In this document: positions 1 to 8,928 of the stretch, piece after piece | How positions within the stretch are numbered: the stretch's first letter is position 1 | How the letters are laid out: each line of letters starts with the position of its first letter | NCBI RefSeq assembly: GCF_001440035.1 | Contig: NZ_LJYG01000026.1 | Span: forward strand, 74,721 to 138,720 | Length of the DNA stretch: 64,000 bases | Direction of reading: 5' to 3' | Source of the DNA: Bradyrhizobium manausense | GTDB lineage: Bacteria > Pseudomonadota > Alphaproteobacteria > Rhizobiales > Xanthobacteraceae | Position numbers and translations under genes: made by a program | Notes under the pieces: model-generated | Databases searched by the model: none | Seen by the model: the letters and a program-made list of their open reading frames with translations, nothing else | What the model was told of the DNA's origin: nothing

Positions 1-3000
1 GCTCAGCAGGGTGATATCAGGGTCGAGCCGACCGTCGTGCATCATGGCGGCTTCCGGATAGCCCGACATATAGAGCACGGGCACGCCGGGACGCCGCTGG
101 AGCACGGCATCGGCAAGTTGGCGGCCGTTCATGCCGCCGGGCATGACGACATCGGTAAAGAGCAGATCGAACGCCGTGCCCAGGTCGACGAGAGCGAGGG
201 CCTCCGGACCATTGGGGGCCGCGATCGTGCGATAGCCGAAGCTCTTCAGCTGCGCTTCGACATAGTTGCGGACCAGTTCGTCGTCCTCGACCAGGAGGAT
301 GGTTTCCCTGCCGCGTTGCAGCTCGCCCTTCGTCACTACGCGTGTGGAGGCTGCGGCCTGGGTCGAGCGCGGCAGGTACAGGCTGAAGGTCGTCCCCGAT
401 CCTTCTTCGCTGTCGATTCGAATATGTCCGCCGGACTGCTTGATGAAGCCATACACCATGCTCAAGCCGAGGCCTGTTCCCTTGCCAAGCTCCTTGGTCG
501 TGAAGAACGGTTCGAAGATCTTGTCGCGGATTGTCAGCGGAATACCCGAGCCGGTGTCGCTCACCGTCACCAGGACGAAGTCGCCGAGCGCATTGTCCGG
601 TCCTGGATTGTCGGGGCCAAAGCTCACATTCGCGGTGCCGAACGAGATCTTGCCTCCGCCCGCCATCGCGTCGCGGGCATTGACGGCGAGGTTGATCAGG
701 GCAGTCGAGAGCTGGCCCGGGTCGATCAGCGCATGCCAGCAATCGGTCTGCAGCGTGGAGCCGACCTCGATGTGCTCGCCCAGCGTTGGCCGCAGCAGCT
801 TTGCGGTATCGACAATGAGATTGTTGACGTCGACGTTGCGGGGTTGCAGCGGCTGCCTGCGCGCGAAGGCGAGGAGCTGCATCGTCAGATCGGCGCCGCG
901 CGTGGCGGCATCGTCGATCATATGTGCAATGGCGACGAGGTCAGGCCGATCCGCAAGATCGTCGATCAGGATCTGGATGGTTCCGGTGATCACCGTCAGG
1001 ATGTTGTTGAAGTCATGGGCGACGCCCCCGGTGAGCTGGCCGACGGCGTCCATCTTCTGCGCCTGGCGCAACTGCTGCTCGAGGCGCAGCCGCTGGCTGA
1101 TGTCGCGTCCGATCACGATGATCAGCTCCTGGCCGCCCGTCGAGACGTGAGCGGCAGACATTTCGACATCGAGGCCCTTGTCGTCGGCGCCACCAAGGCG
1201 AAGCTGCAGCAGACCCGTCGAATCCGGCGCCAGCAATCTGGCGACCTCGGTTGGGTCGGCAGCAACGAGCATGGATCGGAACGGCAGGCCGATGATCTGC
1301 TCCCGCGGCCGTCCCAGCATCACACCGGCGGTGCGGTTTGCCTCGATCACAAGGCCGCTTTGGTCAAGCACCAGGATTGCGTCATGCGCCTGCTCCATGA
1401 GCAGGCGGTATTTTTCCTCGGCCTGCTTTCGCGCGGTGAGGTCGAGCACGAACGAGACGCACTGATCGGACGACCCGGCCAGCGAGGCGGACCCGATCAG
1501 GACAGGAACGCGGCTGCCGTCTTTCCTGATGAACTCCTTCTCCCGCGAGGCGGTCTGCCCCGATGTCCTGAGCTGTTCGACCCGCTGCGTGTCTTCGTCG
1601 CGATATTCCGCCGGGGTCATGTCGTTCCAGCGGATGGCCTTCGAGACCAGGTCCTGCCTGGAATATCCGGTCATGTTCAGGAAGGCGTCGTTGGCGTAGC
1701 TGATGTCGCCGCTGCCCTGCCAGAACAGGATGCCGATAATATTGGAATCGACGAGCCGGCGGATGCGCGCCTCGCGCTCCTGAAGATCGCGATAGAGCAG
1801 CGTGTTCTCTAGAGAGATCGCGGCCTGTGCCGCCAACAGGTCCAGCACCACCACCCGATCCGGCGTGAAGGCGTGCGTCGTCAACGTGTTCTCCAGATAC
1901 AGCAAGCCGATCAGCTTGGCTTGTTTCAGCAATGGCAGGCAGAGCATGGATCTCGGGTGTCGGCGACGCACATAGTCGTCACCGTAGAGCGGATCGGGCC
2001 GCGTTGCGTCGTCGACGATGAGGGGCTTTTGCGCGCGAATGACGTAGCGCAGCAGGGCCTCCGGACAATCCGGTGTCGAGAGCGAGGTTTGACGCATCGC
2101 GACGGTGAACGCGTCGCCCCTGGATTGGCCCTCCGCCTCGATACGGAAGTCGTCGTGCCGCGACAGGATCAGCAGGCCGCGGTCGGCACCAGCGTTCTGC
2201 AGAACGATCTTCATCAGTGTCTCGATCAGCTTCGGCAGCTCGATTTCACTTGAGACGGCCTGAGACGCCTTCACCACGGTGGTAACGTCCATCTGCTGGA
2301 TGGTCGGCCGGCTGCCGGAGCTGGTATCTTCGGCGACGTGGAGGCGCGGATAGAGGTGTTCGAGCTGCCTGACCTTTGGCTCGGCTCCCCAGCGGATAAA
2401 TCCGTAGTGGGCATCGCGCAGATAGGCATTGGCGATCTTGTCGAAGCCGCGCGTCGTGTAGAATCGTCCGGCGAGCTCGTTTGCGATGGCTTCATTGTGA
2501 GGAAAGCCGTTTGCATGCGCCTCGGCGATCGCCCGGTCGTAGTATCGCATCGCATCGACCTCGCGACCTTCGACGCGGGCGATTTCAGCCGAGATGAGAG
2601 CGGCCCGGTCAGCGAAGTCTTCCGGGCTGATCTCGTCCAATTGCTGAAGCTCGCGGTGGTGGCGGGTCAGAGCGTCGTGATGCCGGGCTCGTTCGGCTGG
2701 GATGGCGACCTCGCAACACGCGGCCTCGGCCAAGGCCGCGTAGAAGTGAAAGTCAACCCGATCGAACAGGGCTTTCGAGGTCCACAAGAGCTTGTCGGCC
2801 TTTGCTGCGGCAGCGATGGCGGTGGGATCGTTGGCAAGCACGCGTGCCTGCAGCTTGCGGGTCCAGTACCAGAATCCGGCCTGCTCCAGGTATGGCTCGG
2901 TCTCGAGACGAAGTTCAAACTGCGCCTCGTTGAAGTCGGCGTCATCGAAGCTGCCGAATTTCGCGGTGAGGCCGCGCAGCGACCGGATGAGCTGCAACTG

Positions 3001-6000
3001 CCCAATAATTCGATCCGCTGCAAGATCGACGTGCGCCCGGCGTGCGTAATCGAACCCCGCTTCGGCCTCCAGCTGCACTTCGGCAAGCGGATCGCCGCAA
3101 GCGAGAAGGTGCGTCAGGTGATGATGGCGGGTGAAGCTCGCATAGTTCACGTCGCCGACTTGCTGCGCGGCGTCGAAGGCGCGCTTCAGCCACGGGCGTC
3201 CTGTCCTCACATCTCGCGTCCAGCTGCCGAAGCCGAGATAGGCGCGGGCCTTGAACCGGTCCAGTCCGTGCGTCTCGACCAGATCGAGGCCGAGCCGGGC
3301 AAAGCGATAGCCGGCAGCGTAGTCGCCAAAGTCGGGACCGAGCACGGTGGCGAGCACGATGTAGGCGAGGCACGAGGCATCGGAGTTGCCGTATTGCAAG
3401 CTGAGATTGGCCATGCGTCCGATGATCAGGCGTCGCAAGCCCTCATCGATGTACCACGCCGGCGAAACCAGCACCGTAAGGACATCCATCGTTCCGCGCG
3501 CGACCGGATCAGTCATCTGCGGCAGATCGAGCAGGGCCTCGATCGGACGGTCGCCGATCGCCTGCCACATCCGCTGATATTCTCGCTGGACTTCATCCGG
3601 CGTTGGATGCGCGGACCAGTCGATGCCGACGCGCCGCAGATAGTCGAGCGCGGTCTCGACGTTGCGATCGCTTGGCTCCATCCGCAGCCGGGTGACCGCC
3701 GCGAGATCGGGCAGGGTGGCCGCTCGTTCCGCCAATTCGGCGAGGCGCGTGTTCGCCGTGGCGTGGTCGCCTGCGAGGAATTCGCATTCGGCGCGCTGCA
3801 GCGCCAGCGCGAAGCTGAGCGTGTAATGTTGCTCCCAGCGATCCCCGGGCAGCATGGCTTCGCCGGCCGCGAAGTGAGCGTGCGCCATGGCGAAGGCCGT
3901 TGCGGCCTTGGCGCGGCGACCGGCGAGCAGATTGAGCTCCGCCAGCCTGACGCGCTCCTCCGGTGCCGTGATCAAGGCTGCGCCGCGGTTGAGTTGGCTG
4001 ACGATCTCGAAGACGTCTTCCTCGATCGTTTCAGGCGCGACTCTCGCTGCGAACAAGCGGCCGATGCGCAGATGCGCCGCGGCCCGTCCTTGCTCCGGAA
4101 TCAGTGCATAAGCCGCCTCCTGAAACCGGTCGTGGACGAAGCGATAGGCGCCAGCTTGCGGCTCGACGAATTCCTGGCGAACGGCAGGCCACAGATCGGC
4201 GTTGACCTGCTCATCGGAGGCGTCGAGCACGATCGAAAGCACTGCCACCTCGGCGACATTTCCGAGGCAGGCCATCTGCTGCAGAGCCGTGCGTGTCGCC
4301 AGGGGCAGCCGGGTGAGCTTCCCCAGCATGAGGTCGATGACGTTGTCGGTGTACCGCTTGGCATGAATCCGCTCGAGGTCCCAGGCCCAGCGCACGGCAT
4401 TATGGTCGAACGCAAGCAGGCCTTCGTCGACCAGCGAGAACATGAACTGGATGGCGAAGAACGGATTGCCTGCGGTCTTCTCGTGCACGAGCTGGATCAG
4501 CGGCGCAGCGTGACTCGGCTCGCAACGGAGCGTGTCCGCCAGCAACTGGCCGAGGTGCCTGCGACCGAGCGGCGCGAGCTTGATCTCCACCACCCCTCGC
4601 CCGCGCGCCTTGATGGCCTCGCGCATGCGCATGACGGGATGAGCGGAATCCACCTCGTTGTCCCGGTAAGCACCGATCAGCATCAGGTGCTTCAGCTCTG
4701 ACCGCGTCAGGATGTCCTCGAGCAGCTCGAACGTCGCCATATCAAGCCATTGCAAATCATCGAGGAACAACACCAGGGGATGTTCGGCCCGCGCAAACAC
4801 GCCGATGAACTGTTCGATCACGCGGTGAAAGCGGCTTTGCGCGTGCTGGAGCGGCAGCTCGGTGACAGGCGGCTGCTCGCCGATGACGGCCTTCAGCTCC
4901 GGAACGAGGTCCACGACGAGCTGTCCGTTTGGACCAAGCGCGCCGAGCAGGGCCTGGCGCCACTCGCTCAGCTCGGCGTCGCGCTTGCCGAGAAGAGGAC
5001 GGACGAGGCCCTGGAATGCCTTGGCGAGCGTGGCGTAGGGGATGTCGCGTTTGTGCTGGTCGAATTTGCCTGACGCAAACAGGCCGTGCGACGGCACCAG
5101 CACCTTGTGCAGCTCGTTGACGACGGATGACTTGCCGATGCCGGAATATCCGGCGATCAGCGCAAGCTCCGGCGCGCCGCTCTTGGCGATGCGTTCGAAC
5201 GAGGCGAACAACGTCTCGCACTCGGATGTCCTTCCGTACAGCTTCTCGGGTACGAGAAGTCGGTCCGGCGTGTCGTGCTGGCCCAGCGGGAAGTCGTCGA
5301 TGGAACGCCGAAGCTCCCATTCTGCGAGGCAGCGTTGCAGATCCCGCTCGGCGCCGCCGGCGGTCTGGTAGCGCTCCTCCGCCATCTTGGAGAGCAGCTT
5401 CATGATCAGCCTGGACACCGTGCCGGGCACGTTGCTGCATCGCTTGGCCGGCGCATCGGGCTCCCTTGCGACGTGACAATGCACCCATTCCATCGGATCA
5501 TCAGCGGCGAATGGCAGCGAGCCGGTGACCATCTGGTAGAGCGTGACGCCGAGTGAGTAGAGATCACTCCGCGAGTCGATCGAGCGGTTCATGCGTCCCG
5601 TCTGCTCGGGAGAGATGTAAGCGAGCGTACCGGCGATCTGCTCGTGAGCTGCCGCGGACAGCCGTTCGCGGGGGCGGCGTGTTGCGAATCCGAAGCCGGT
5701 GAGATGCACGCCGCCATTGTTGCGGCTCACCAGGATATTTGCCGGTTTGATATCCTTGTGCACCAGGCCCTGTTGATGGACCTTGCCCAGCGCGGCAGCG
5801 ATCTGGATCGCGAGACGCAGGAAGCTGCCCGTCTCCATGGGCGCGTCCGTCAGCCAGGTCAGCGGCTCGCCGCCGCGATCCTCGAGGATGAGAATGGTGC
5901 GGCCGTGATCCTGCAGCAGCTCGAGCGGCTTCGCCGCCCAGGCACCATCCAGTTCGTCCCTCAGCGCAAATTCGTGAGCCAGCCGGTCGAGGCTTTGCGG

Positions 6001-6156
6001 GCTTGGATGTTCCGCGGCCGGAACGACGGCCAGCACGACCTGCCGTTCACCGTCAATGCGTTCGCGGGAGGTGCGGCACAGCAGAATCCCGTCTTCGTCG
6101 CAGAGAACCTGCGGACCGTGGGCCCAGCCGGTGCCCATAAATGATGAGAGATTCAT
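1..6156 (-). CDS. Hybrid Ser/Thr kinase-like / AAA ATPase / GAF-PAS / histidine kinase / receiver protein (3' end outside window)
   Basis: Cytoplasmic signalling protein; 2052 codons are visible and the stop lies beyond base 1. From the N-terminus: a protein-kinase-like domain (residues about 1-300, VHKDIKPANIL with Asp135); an AAA ATPase (about 315-640, Walker A GYSGIGKS with Lys342, Walker B VLFLDDLQW); a long helical region; a GAF domain (about 1300-1450); two PAS-like stretches (about 1450-1690); a HisKA domain with GGVAHDFNN (His1714); an HATPase with DTGSGIP and GTGLGL; and a receiver with LLFTDVVMP (Asp2002). The ATG at 6156 was chosen because the frame is closed by a stop near 6262 and has no other ATG; the Shine-Dalgarno is weak. 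Odd: the DFG motif reads GFG (Gly154) and the strand expected to carry the ATP-binding Lys reads VVLAVV, so the first domain may be a pseudokinase. Known family: trifunctional serine/threonine kinase/ATP-binding/sensor histidine kinase. Ligand unknown. Confidence 0.93.
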   Translation of the reverse strand, partial: MNLSSFMGTGWAHGPQVLCDEDGILLCRTSRERIDGERQVVLAVVPAAEHPSPQSLDRLAHEFALRDELDGAWAAKPLELLQDHGRTILILEDRGGEPLTWLTDAPMETGSFLRLAIQIAAALGKVHQQGLVHKDIKPANILVSRNNGGVHLTGFGFATRRPRERLSAAAHEQIAGTLAYISPEQTGRMNRSIDSRSDLYSLGVTLYQMVTGSLPFAADDPMEWVHCHVAREPDAPAKRCSNVPGTVSRLIMKLLSKMAEERYQTAGGAERDLQRCLAEWELRRSIDDFPLGQHDTPDRLLVPEKLYGRTSECETLFASFERIAKSGAPELALIAGYSGIGKSSVVNELHKVLVPSHGLFASGKFDQHKRDIPYATLAKAFQGLVRPLLGKRDAELSEWRQALLGALGPNGQLVVDLVPELKAVIGEQPPVTELPLQHAQSRFHRVIEQFIGVFARAEHPLVLFLDDLQWLDMATFELLEDILTRSELKHLMLIGAYRDNEVDSAHPVMRMREAIKARGRGVVEIKLAPLGRRHLGQLLADTLRCEPSHAAPLIQLVHEKTAGNPFFAIQFMFSLVDEGLLAFDHNAVRWAWDLERIHAKRYTDNVIDLMLGKLTRLPLATRTALQQMACLGNVAEVAVLSIVLDASDEQVNADLWPAVRQEFVEPQAGAYRFVHDRFQEAAYALIPEQGRAAAHLRIGRLFAARVAPETIEEDVFEIVSQLNRGAALITAPEERVRLAELNLLAGRRAKAATAFAMAHAHFAAGEAMLPGDRWEQHYTLSFALALQRAECEFLAGDHATANTRLAELAERAATLPDLAAVTRLRMEPSDRNVETALDYLRRVGIDWSAHPTPDEVQREYQRMWQAIGDRPIEALLDLPQMTDPVARGTMDVLTVLVSPAWYIDEGLRRLIIGRMANLSLQYGNSDASCLAYIVLATVLGPDFGDYAAGYRFARLGLDLVETHGLDRFKARAYLGFGSWTRDVRTGRPWLKRAFDAAQQVGDVNYASFTRHHHLTHLLACGDPLAEVQLEAEAGFDYARRAHVDLAADRIIGQLQLIRSLRGLTAKFGSFDDADFNEAQFELRLETEPYLEQAGFWYWTRKLQARVLANDPTAIAAAAKADKLLWTSKALFDRVDFHFYAALAEAACCEVAIPAERARHHDALTRHHRELQQLDEISPEDFADRAALISAEIARVEGREVDAMRYYDRAIAEAHANGFPHNEAIANELAGRFYTTRGFDKIANAYLRDAHYGFIRWGAEPKVRQLEHLYPRLHVAEDTSSGSRPTIQQMDVTTVVKASQAVSSEIELPKLIETLMKIVLQNAGADRGLLILSRHDDFRIEAEGQSRGDAFTVAMRQTSLSTPDCPEALLRYVIRAQKPLIVDDATRPDPLYGDDYVRRRHPRSMLCLPLLKQAKLIGLLYLENTLTTHAFTPDRVVVLDLLAAQAAISLENTLLYRDLQEREARIRRLVDSNIIGILFWQGSGDISYANDAFLNMTGYSRQDLVSKAIRWNDMTPAEYRDEDTQRVEQLRTSGQTASREKEFIRKDGSRVPVLIGSASLAGSSDQCVSFVLDLTARKQAEEKYRLLMEQAHDAILVLDQSGLVIEANRTAGVMLGRPREQIIGLPFRSMLVAADPTEVARLLAPDSTGLLQLRLGGADDKGLDVEMSAAHVSTGGQELIIVIGRDISQRLRLEQQLRQAQKMDAVGQLTGGVAHDFNNILTVITGTIQILIDDLADRPDLVAIAHMIDDAATRGADLTMQLLAFARRQPLQPRNVDVNNLIVDTAKLLRPTLGEHIEVGSTLQTDCWHALIDPGQLSTALINLAVNARDAMAGGGKISFGTANVSFGPDNPGPDNALGDFVLVTVSDTGSGIPLTIRDKIFEPFFTTKELGKGTGLGLSMVYGFIKQSGGHIRIDSEEGSGTTFSLYLPRSTQAAASTRVVTKGELQRGRETILLVEDDELVRNYVEAQLKSFGYRTIAAPNGPEALALVDLGTAFDLLFTDVVMPGGMNGRQLADAVLQRRPGVPVLYMSGYPEAAMMHDGRLDPDITLLS

Positions 6157-6683: not shown

Positions 6684-8474
6684 CTACGTGTTCCGATACC
6701 AGCTCGCAATATTCCACGTCGTGACGTCCCACCCCGAGATGTCAGTCATCAGGCCATCGACGGCGCCGCCGACGATGTAGCGTGAGAGCAGCGGCAGGAA
6801 GATGTTGGCCTCGCAGAAGATCTCATCGACCTTGATCAGCAGCGCGGCGCGCTTGACGGGATCGAGCTCGTTCTGGGCGGCCTTGTAGGCCTTGTCGGCC
6901 TCCGGGTCGGACCAGCGCGAAACGTTGCGGCCGAGCCATTTGTTGTCCTTGCTCGCGATTTCCCAGGAGACGCACTGGTTCAGGAACCGCTCCGGATCGG
7001 GCTGGGGTTGCGTCGCATTGTACATTTCCATGTCGCAGTAGAATTTCGAGTAGGTGTCGGGATTGCCGACATCCGAGGAGAAGAACACCGACGCCGTGAC
7101 CGATTTGAGTTCGATCTCGATCCCGGCCTTCTGGCAGGCCTGCTTGATGATGGCTTGCGCCTTCTGGCGCGGCGCGTTGATCGAGGTCTGGAACACGTAT
7201 TTCAGTTGCTTGCCGTCCCTCGTACGAATGCCGTCGGCACCAACCTTCCAGCCGGCCTCGTCGAGAATCTTGTTCGCCTTCTCGATGTTGAATTCGTATT
7301 TCAGCTTGCTCGATTTGAACTGCGGCGGCTGGTTGACGAAGCTCGCCGTTGCGACGGCGGCGCGGCCGTAGATGAACTTCTGGATTCCTTCGCGGTCAAT
7401 CAGCAGGTTGAGTGCCCGCCGCACGGCCGGATCGGACAGCGTCGGGTGCTTCGTCCTGGCGTTGGATCGTTCGCCGTCAACCTCGGTCCAAGGGTCCGTG
7501 GTGTTGAGGATGATGAACTCGATGCCGCCTGCGGTCGTGTACTCGACCTTGCCTTTGCCGCCGGTCTCCATGCGCTTGAGGATCTCGTCCTCGACCAGCA
7601 GATTCCACGCATAATCGTATTCGCCGGTCTGTAGCACGGCGCGCGCGGCAGAGACTGCGTCGCCGCCGCCCTTGATGTCGAACGTGTCGAAATAGGGCTG
7701 GTTCTTGACGTGATAATCAGGATTGCGTTCGGCCCGCAGCAGATCGCCGGGCTTGAACTCGACGAATTTGTAGGGACCGGTGCCGACCGGCTTCAGATTG
7801 CCCGGCGCGTCGCGCGATTTCGCACCGGCATAGTCGCCGAAATGATGCTTCGGCAGGATCTGGCCCACCGAGCCGACGAAGGGATCGGCCCAGAACGGGG
7901 TTGGCGCCTTGAAGATCACCTTAATGGTGTGGTCGTCGATCTTCTCGACAATGATGTCCTTGTAGGAGCCGGTGGTGTAGGCGGCCGTCGCCAGGTCGGC
8001 GGCGTACGTCCAGGTGAAGACGACGTCGTCGGCGGTGAAGGGCTTGCCGTCATGCCATCTCACGCCCTGCTTCAGCTTCCAGATCACGCAGGTGCCGTCA
8101 GCCGACAGCCCGCCATTCGCCTTGGTCGGGATCTCGGCGGCGAGACAGGGGATGAGATTGCCCTCCTTGTCCCAACCGGCGAGCGGCTCGAAGAAGATGC
8201 GTGAGGCGACCTGGTCCTTGGTGCCCAGCGCGAAATGCGGATTGAGCAAGGTGGGCGCCTGCCAGACCAGCATCCTGAGCGGACCGCCGCCGCCGGCTTT
8301 CGTCGGCTTGTAGGCCAGTGTGGCATTAGCCATCGCCACGTCGTTCCAGAGCAGGATCTGGCTCGCAATTGGCGCCGTGATCCCCGCTGCGGCCAACGTC
8401 CGCATGAAGGAGCGCCGCGACAGCGTGCCCTGCCTCACCTCCGCGATGAGCCCGCGGATGTCGTTTTCGTCCAT
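6684..8474 (-). CDS. ABC transporter substrate-binding protein, peptide/nickel (SBP_bac_5) family
   Basis: Periplasmic solute-binding protein, 596 residues, of the DppA/OppA/NikA class. The start at 8474 (MDENDIRG) follows a GGAGG ribosome site; a longer frame to 8558 exists but has no such site. The N-terminus carries a twin-arginine-type signal (SRRSFMRTLAAAGITAPIA), consistent with folded export. The body has the family pattern (DDVVFTW; VRRALNLLIDREGI near the middle). No permease or ATPase gene lies beside it, so it is an orphan within this window. Substrate cannot be told from sequence; an oligopeptide or similar amphipathic ligand is the usual guess. Confidence 0.88.
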   Translation of the reverse strand: MDENDIRGLIAEVRQGTLSRRSFMRTLAAAGITAPIASQILLWNDVAMANATLAYKPTKAGGGGPLRMLVWQAPTLLNPHFALGTKDQVASRIFFEPLAGWDKEGNLIPCLAAEIPTKANGGLSADGTCVIWKLKQGVRWHDGKPFTADDVVFTWTYAADLATAAYTTGSYKDIIVEKIDDHTIKVIFKAPTPFWADPFVGSVGQILPKHHFGDYAGAKSRDAPGNLKPVGTGPYKFVEFKPGDLLRAERNPDYHVKNQPYFDTFDIKGGGDAVSAARAVLQTGEYDYAWNLLVEDEILKRMETGGKGKVEYTTAGGIEFIILNTTDPWTEVDGERSNARTKHPTLSDPAVRRALNLLIDREGIQKFIYGRAAVATASFVNQPPQFKSSKLKYEFNIEKANKILDEAGWKVGADGIRTRDGKQLKYVFQTSINAPRQKAQAIIKQACQKAGIEIELKSVTASVFFSSDVGNPDTYSKFYCDMEMYNATQPQPDPERFLNQCVSWEIASKDNKWLGRNVSRWSDPEADKAYKAAQNELDPVKRAALLIKVDEIFCEANIFLPLLSRYIVGGAVDGLMTDISGWDVTTWNIASWYRNT

Positions 8475-8928
8475 CGGATGACCTCCACCTGCCACAACAA
8501 CAGTCGTCACCGGCGCAGCCATCATGTTGCATCGTGGTGTGGGCAGCAATGCCGACAATGGTGGAAAGCGGTGCGACGAAATGCCGAGCCAGGACCGCGG
8601 GTAGTGTCAATCCAGAGAACGAGAAGACGCATCTCCAAGTTCGAACGCAGCCAGAAGATCGATGCCGGTGCGCCTTGCTCCGTCATTGCGAGCGCAGCGA
8701 AGCAATCCAGAATCCCTCCGCGGCGACAGTCTGGATTGCTTCGCTGCGCTCGCAATGACGCGGTTGGGAGCCGCGTGCTTCAAAAGGGCTGCGGTCCGCG
8801 GGAGGCGGCCATGCGCGCGGTTCCGCGCATCGGTATTCCGTTGCCCTGTACGCGCGGGCCTCACTATATTGGCGAACGATGCAACCGGAGCGGCCTGCGC
8901 GGCGCTTCCAGCGATTGAGGGCCACGCG
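8475..8928. other. Intergenic region with a dispersed inverted repeat
   Basis: Divergent gap of about 454 bases between the minus-strand binding protein and the plus-strand molybdopterin enzyme. It holds the 31-bp inverted repeat at 8681-8760. Promoters for both neighbours should lie here but no convincing boxes were recognised. An open frame in phase with the oxidoreductase begins at 8662 inside the repeat and is not taken as coding. Confidence 0.6.
8681..8760. repeat. Dispersed palindromic repeat, family A (copy 1)
   Basis: Perfect 31-bp arms (8681-8711 and 8730-8760, beginning CGTCATTGCGAGCGCAGCGA) flank an 18-base centre. A second copy with identical arms and nearly the same centre is at 26739-26818. 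It can form one long hairpin. Elements of this type are common between genes in Bradyrhizobium. Confidence 0.9.

Follow-up and report, generated by a model that had tools for sequence, protein, structure and literature searches.

A probable pseudokinase, its active-site losses nearly fixed among relatives, at the N terminus of a Bradyrhizobium hybrid histidine kinase

Introduction

A stretch of 64,000 nucleotides from Bradyrhizobium manausense (contig NZ_LJYG01000026.1, positions 74,721 to 138,720; hereinafter the window) carries at its left end a gene for a giant sensor protein. It lies on the minus strand, with its first codon (M1) at window position 6156, and its frame leaves the window at the left end and carries on past it in the assembly. 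The protein is a hybrid histidine kinase that starts with a second, Ser/Thr kinase-like domain whose catalytic motifs look altered. The locus raises the question of whether this N-terminal domain still phosphorylates proteins or has become a part of some other kind. The evidence below favours the view that it is a fixed pseudokinase, likely acting as a regulatory input part without Ser/Thr phosphorylation, which in the window's own orthologue group is probably linked to arabinosides.

Results

Two of the three defining catalytic residues are absent

The initial annotation of the window, made from its letters and translations, had described an intact catalytic loop, a GFG in place of DFG and a missing ATP-anchoring Lys, and had read these together as a pseudokinase. 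Re-examination bears out each of the three: the catalytic Asp is retained as D135 within VHKDIKPANIL, the altered motif is centered on G154 within LTGFGFA, and VVLAVV spans residues 40-45, of which V44 occupies the column of the ATP-anchoring Lys. This column was set by alignment to 28 relatives that keep Asp154 (Lys in 26, Arg in two), whose VILK Lys falls on V44; alignments to the PknB profile start at profile residue 81. The Asp154 set includes DFS and DLG variants and four rows with Asn at position 135. The features of the domain are as follows (window coordinates; close homologues and Asp154 relatives are the sets of 114 and 28 rows defined in the next section).

5308..6111, minus strand: kinase-fold domain, residues 16-283 (Pfam Pkinase, 97.1 bits over residues 57-264)
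6073..6075, minus strand: R28, conserved basic residue of strand beta-2 (Lys/Arg in 114/114 close homologues and 24/28 Asp154 relatives)
6025..6027, minus strand: V44, position of the absent beta-3 (VAIK) Lys (Lys in 26/28 Asp154 relatives and 0/114 close homologues)
5971..5973, minus strand: E62, the alpha-C Glu, kept (Glu in 110/114 close homologues)
5959..5961, minus strand: R66, basic residue four positions after the alpha-C Glu (Lys/Arg in 107/114 close homologues, 0/28 Asp154 relatives and 15/18 of the own orthologue group), which by PKA numbering we take to be the regulatory-spine position of alpha-C
5737..5760, minus strand: catalytic loop HKDIKPAN, residues 133-140, with D135, K137 and N140 (D135 and K137 each in 113/114)
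5689..5697, minus strand: GFG replacing DFG, residues 154-156 (G154 in 113/114, F155 and G156 in 114/114)
5581..5688, minus strand: activation segment, residues 157-192, whose end (about 176-192) is among the best-conserved stretches and has low model confidence

Sections of a 2025 review apply the term pseudokinase to the loss of any of the beta-3 Lys, the HRD Asp and the DFG Asp, especially where activity data are lacking (PMC12599244). In the window domain Lys44 and Asp154 are absent and D135 is present, and it accordingly lacks both the beta-3 Lys and the DFG Asp of canonical Hanks-type Ser/Thr kinases. We rejected a verdict drawn from GFG alone, since CASK, which like the window domain has lost the Mg-binding Asp, is described in part of the literature on it as active without cations; unlike the window domain, CASK keeps its beta-3 Lys and glycine-rich loop (PMC4718504). 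Elsewhere in the genome three further Pkinase-type domains were found, all of which, by eye, retain the Lys and the Asp of DFG or DYG. One of the genome's other kinase domains (L001:1201-2217) has a phosphatase-like end (LLATDGAYEFVD) ahead of it in the same frame, by eye a phosphatase-kinase fusion.

With the fold and the catalytic loop intact, the domain could still be a canonical Ser/Thr kinase if another part of the chain, or a partner, provided the Lys and Asp. However, residues 16-32 of the window protein, the glycine-rich region in which, by the initial annotation, a Lys would speak against a pseudokinase, hold no Lys, and no acid adjoins residue 154 as a substitute, T153, G154, F155 and G156 being themselves nearly invariant. 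We therefore regard a kinase with supplied residues as improbable.

The losses are shared by a broad clade of relatives

Relatives were collected as 167 loci from contigs, genomes and plasmids, which gave 162 alignment rows after removal of five exact duplicates (the window stands in for L089). Five rows from genomes of the window's genus duplicate named ones, labelled Bradyrhizobium in four cases and Frankia sp. RB7 in one. The counts leave out L107 (in-frame TAG), L144 (a fragment) and L146 (out of frame) and cover the remaining 159 rows, which are not independent, since some genomes contribute several. The close set comprises 114 rows with at least 47% identity to the window, L169 having been excluded by hand (loop HGDLRP; likewise with Gly154 and without Lys44). 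One of the searches relied on a peptide pattern covering HKDIKPAN, a choice biased towards that loop; the best 80 of its 575 matches were kept, and GFG formed part of no pattern.

Fixation of GFG, which the initial annotation had proposed as a check, is nearly complete: residue 154 is Gly in 113 of the 114 close homologues and Arg in one (L104). Residue 44 is Val in 81, Ala in 19, Leu in nine, another residue in five and Lys in none. The catalytic loop is retained by the same rows, with H133 in all 114 and D135 and K137 missing from one row each. Residue 140 varies between Asn (73, including the window) and His (41); the split is 42 Asn to 33 His among the 75 rows from the pattern search and 31 to eight among the other 39. 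Over all 159 rows the two losses go together, Lys44 being found in 26 of the 28 Asp154 rows as against one of the 123 Gly154 rows. With two of the three defining residues gone and their loss near-fixed across the family, the pseudokinase reading of the initial annotation gains support.

A quick, unrooted tree of 83 rows, built without columns 44 and 154 and with several long branches, has Lys44 changing state once; we read the change as a loss rather than a gain because canonical kinases possess the Lys. The window falls within a group of 38 Gly154 rows and one Arg154 row that a branch with Shimodaira-Hasegawa-like approximate likelihood ratio test support of 97 sets apart from the rest of this tree. 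Mapped on all rows, Gly154 requires seven changes of state, since Gly occurs in scattered degraded lines as well. The close set comes from contigs named Bradyrhizobium, Rhizobium, Mesorhizobium, Paraburkholderia, Cupriavidus and Pseudomonas, with a few metagenome bins labelled Acidobacteria, Verrucomicrobiota and Deltaproteobacteria that are possibly mis-binned; the GFG/no-Lys pattern is present in alpha-, beta- and gamma-proteobacteria. Hence this state is not peculiar to the window gene and is common to many relatives from soil and plant-associated bacteria. The DFG codon, GGC, is one base off GAC, so that an error of sequencing or assembly might be entertained there; it has next to no probability, since the homologues with Gly come from many separately sequenced genomes.

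Several members depart from these two main groups. L166 (genome G264) is a lone distant relative combining Lys44, Gly154 and His140. More degraded relatives (HGDIKP, GGFG) are found on Erwinia and Pantoea plasmids (L171, L172), in both records preceded by two DUF1427/XapX-type genes and a response-regulator gene. Interrupted members also occur: L107 (the same as L019) has its in-frame TAG, and some matches in G078 and G123 have open frames of 533-1187 aa.

The domain keeps a kinase fold under purifying selection

An AlphaFold2 model of residues 1-292, built with 76 sequences, has a mean predicted local distance difference test score of 83.9 and a predicted template modelling score (pTM) of 0.83, with low confidence in the activation segment. 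Its best structural match is PknB (Z 28.2 over 255 residues, root-mean-square deviation 2.4, 28% identity), which Foldseek likewise ranks first, and the kinase homology domain of STK40 is also among the fold matches (Z 24.3). PknB, which we take to be a complete active kinase, has DFG where the window has G154; STK40 is presumably a pseudokinase. In a second model, with the AAA domain added, no ordering of the activation segment by that domain was seen.

Measured against eight orthologues of 77-95% identity, the ratio of non-synonymous to synonymous substitution rates (dN/dS) of the kinase domain is 0.10-0.21, comparable to the 0.08-0.31 of a short stretch at the start of the AAA domain, and 38 alignment columns are invariant over 76 sequences. 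These values bear on the notion that the kinase part is an unneeded, drifting relic. Some distant relatives, from the set of 17 rows that belong to neither main group, are indeed altered at several motifs, as decay would have it; however, the low dN/dS, the invariant columns and the recurrence of the same pattern in three proteobacterial classes make a relic highly improbable. The relic and sequencing-error explanations were accordingly both rejected, on the dN/dS and the near-fixed Gly154. The domain is under purifying selection, a conserved pseudokinase and not a decaying kinase, and since many relatives share the loss it looks more like a lasting regulatory element than the product of a damaged gene.

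Basic residues around the retained Asp

Three basic positions distinguish the clade from the Asp154 relatives, namely 137 (113/114 close homologues versus 1/28), 66 (107/114 versus 0/28) and 24 (83/114 versus 1/28), whereas position 28 is basic in both sets. By PKA numbering, we take residue 24 to be the place of the relocated lysine of WNK kinases. As a compensating residue R24 would suit most of the clade; we rejected it in that role for the window's own orthologue group (18 rows), in which residue 24 is uniformly Ile, Val or Leu (Ile in the window).

Among recognised pseudokinases, the active site of the window domain resembles in sequence that of the DLHK group, close relatives of the CP1 kinases. 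Sections of the 2025 review describe these as keeping the HRD Asp with the Lys and DFG altered, GFG being the motif of a Pseudomonas aeruginosa example, and report a proposal, based on models, that they bind ATP via three arginines, two from beta-2 and one from the catalytic loop (PMC12599244). The window domain likewise keeps D135 and N140 (though Asn140 is not general in its clade), has V44 and G154 altered and carries basic catalytic-loop and beta-2 residues; it has Lys, not Arg, at 137 and, in beta-2, R28 together with Ile at 24. According to the same sections, DLHK domains are often linked to helicase-like domains, mostly a DEAD-like helicase and DNA2 (PMC12599244); none is among the Pfam matches here.

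These residues leave room for an unusual, metal-independent binding of nucleotide. The domain might then be an atypical cation-independent kinase or a nucleotide-binding switch, in which basic residues of beta-2, alpha-C and the catalytic loop would hold the phosphates instead of Lys and Mg, as proposed likewise for the DLHK pseudokinases and ULK4, or be catalytic in the manner of CASK, active without cations despite its lost Asp (PMC4718504). The near-invariance of D135 and K137, the clade-specific K/R66 and the frequent basic residue at 24 agree with this possibility. Against it stand a Trp, in 81 of the 114 close homologues, at the position that we map to the first glycine of the loop and, in the window's own group, the uniformly hydrophobic residue 24 and a residue 66 that is basic in 15 of 18 rows. 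We hold such a switch or kinase to be unlikely, if the most serious of the alternatives. More speculatively still, the active site could have been re-wired: once Lys and Asp had been lost, the kept catalytic Asp might have become surrounded by fixed basic residues at 137, at 66 and, in most members but not in the window's group, at 24, forming a cation-independent nucleotide sensor or phosphotransferase that gates the histidine kinase further along the protein. For the window's group, the setting would be an arabinoside-uptake locus. We put this forward as a tentative idea that we doubt, with a presumed side-chain geometry.

Domain order of the sensor and comparison with known architectures

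Behind the kinase-fold domain the sensor is organised as follows.

4675..5244, minus strand: AAA_16 ATPase domain, residues 305-494 (Pfam, 134.4 bits)
1810..2238, minus strand: GAF domain, residues 1307-1449 (Pfam)
1099..1716, minus strand: two PAS domains, residues 1481-1571 and 1581-1686 (Pfam)
853..1041, minus strand: HisKA with phospho-acceptor H1714 (Pfam; translation)
367..723, minus strand: HATPase_c, residues 1812-1930 (Pfam)
1..300, minus strand: receiver domain from residue 1953, with D2002; the gene extends past the left end of the window (Pfam; translation)

The AAA_16, HisKA, HATPase_c and Response_reg matches all score above the Pfam cut-offs. That these domains keep their key residues, as initially annotated, is borne out by eye in the translation: the Walker A motif reads GYSGIGKS (336-343), LDDLQWLD is present, and so are H1714 and D2002. 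Late in the sensor gene, outside the left end of the window, a codon near position 6720 of L182 reads as unknown.

The order of kinase domain, AAA ATPase, GAF/PAS and histidine kinase fits the CP1 pseudokinases, of which the window protein is a candidate member. In sections of the 2025 review the CP1 kinases occur mainly in cyanobacteria and proteobacteria; pseudokinases make up about 40% of the family, and all of them carry a predicted ATPase (COG3899), in many cases along with FhlA/GAF or PAS sensors (PMC12599244). In the window protein an ATPase domain, scored as Pfam AAA_16, directly follows the kinase domain, and GAF and two PAS domains come behind it. The difference is that those sections describe no fixed GFG/no-Lys sub-clade, and the two Leptospira members they list carry other motifs (PMC12599244). 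The cyanobacterial dual Ser/Thr-His kinases HstK and Pkn40/41 are also reported, in parts of the papers on them, to combine an N-terminal kinase, GAF and a C-terminal histidine kinase (PMC2176072, PMC1262709); the Nostoc relative L167, the sole one aligned, differs from the window in having Lys44, Asp135 and Asp154 (DFS).

A eukaryotic parallel, compared by domain names only, is Chk1p of Candida albicans, for which kinase-like, AAA-16, GAF, HisK and REC domains are named as in the window. In the portion of the Chk1p study that concerns deletions, a mutant lacking both the kinase-like and the AAA-16 part resembled the whole-gene deletion in phenotype (PMC9069115). By analogy this fits a regulatory role, although it does not tell the kinase-like part from the AAA part.

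Linkage to an arabinofuranosidase gene

Just left of the window lies the following gene, tail-to-tail with the sensor gene.

Contig 73074-74615 (L182:5075-6616): arfA arabinofuranosidase (NCBIfam, Pfam)

Its score of 820.6 exceeds the cut-off of 625 for the NCBIfam arfA equivalog, and it also passes Pfam Alpha-L-AF_C. A close orthologue of the sensor (at least 73% identity) is present in 15 of 146 genomes of the genus, and in all 15 arfA is convergent with the sensor gene, at 5.6-6.3 kb from the sensor start, consistent with the length of that gene. Both genes are interrupted in one genome (G078), the sensor frame measuring 1187 aa and arfA being split in two. At E 1e-50 no arfA was found in seven contrast genomes with only distant members of the family (at most 68% identity). 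Altogether 16 of the 146 genomes have arfA at 79% identity or more, and three more hold a relative of 58-59%. A Fisher test of the co-occurrence was set aside, since it takes no account of relatedness among the genomes.

Ahead of arfA lie two ABC-transporter ATPase genes, whose best matches are to peptide-type families, below the cut-off, as well as two permease-like frames and a solute-binding-like frame, all three named by eye. The transporter frames have counterparts around five relatives and the solute-binding-like frame in four. On the other side, we considered and rejected as context the solute-binding protein gene upstream of the sensor (6684-8558) and the next three genes, for which no match was found around five orthologues (stretches of 17-18 kb, E 1e-20, frames of at least 150 aa). 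The literature covered, subscription papers apart, yielded no description of the GFG sub-clade or of its linkage to arfA.

Discussion

Taking these lines together, we consider it likely that the sensor bears at its N terminus a fixed pseudokinase with a regulatory role. Like those of the surrounding clade, the domain would keep the kinase fold and the catalytic-loop Asp without the Lys and Asp needed for canonical use of Mg-ATP. It would share with the AAA ATPase and the long stretch that follows an input and regulatory role, controlling how active the histidine kinase and receiver are, most likely through conformation or partner binding instead of Ser/Thr phosphorylation. Because the gene is tied to the arabinofuranosidase locus in the window's orthologue group, the pathway controlled there is probably the uptake and breakdown of plant arabinosides, with an arabinoside-related state as the putative signal.

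Several points weigh against this proposal. D135 is almost invariant, and pure scaffolding has no obvious need of a catalytic Asp; nucleotide could be bound by the basic residues that mark the clade (K137, K/R66 and in part R24). The pocket columns, picked by PKA numbering, are somewhat better conserved than the domain mean (0.79 versus 1.13 bits; random-sampling p 0.04), in contrast to VRK3, for which inverted conservation is described. The model of the kinase and AAA domains together reaches a pTM of only 0.67, so no interface between them is shown. In Chk1p, according to the same portion of that study, the phenotype was restored in part when the GAF domain was deleted as well, and the kinase-like and AAA parts were deleted only as a pair (PMC9069115). 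As for arabinosides, G133, which belongs to the 16 genomes having arfA at 79% identity or above, is without a close sensor orthologue, and the linkage was examined within one genus, where common descent may account for part of it.

The pseudokinase is an already recognised kind, and the window domain is ordinary in kind, a clean, testable example. While bacterial pseudokinases have been catalogued, the 2025 review regards them as largely unexplored by experiment (PMC12599244). In this family several genera share the near-fixed losses, comparison is possible with relatives whose motifs are intact, the protein carries its own output domains (histidine kinase and receiver), and the arabinofuranosidase locus that adjoins the gene in the window's group offers a candidate signal and read-out. 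These features together make the role of a pseudokinase in a bacterial sensor testable.

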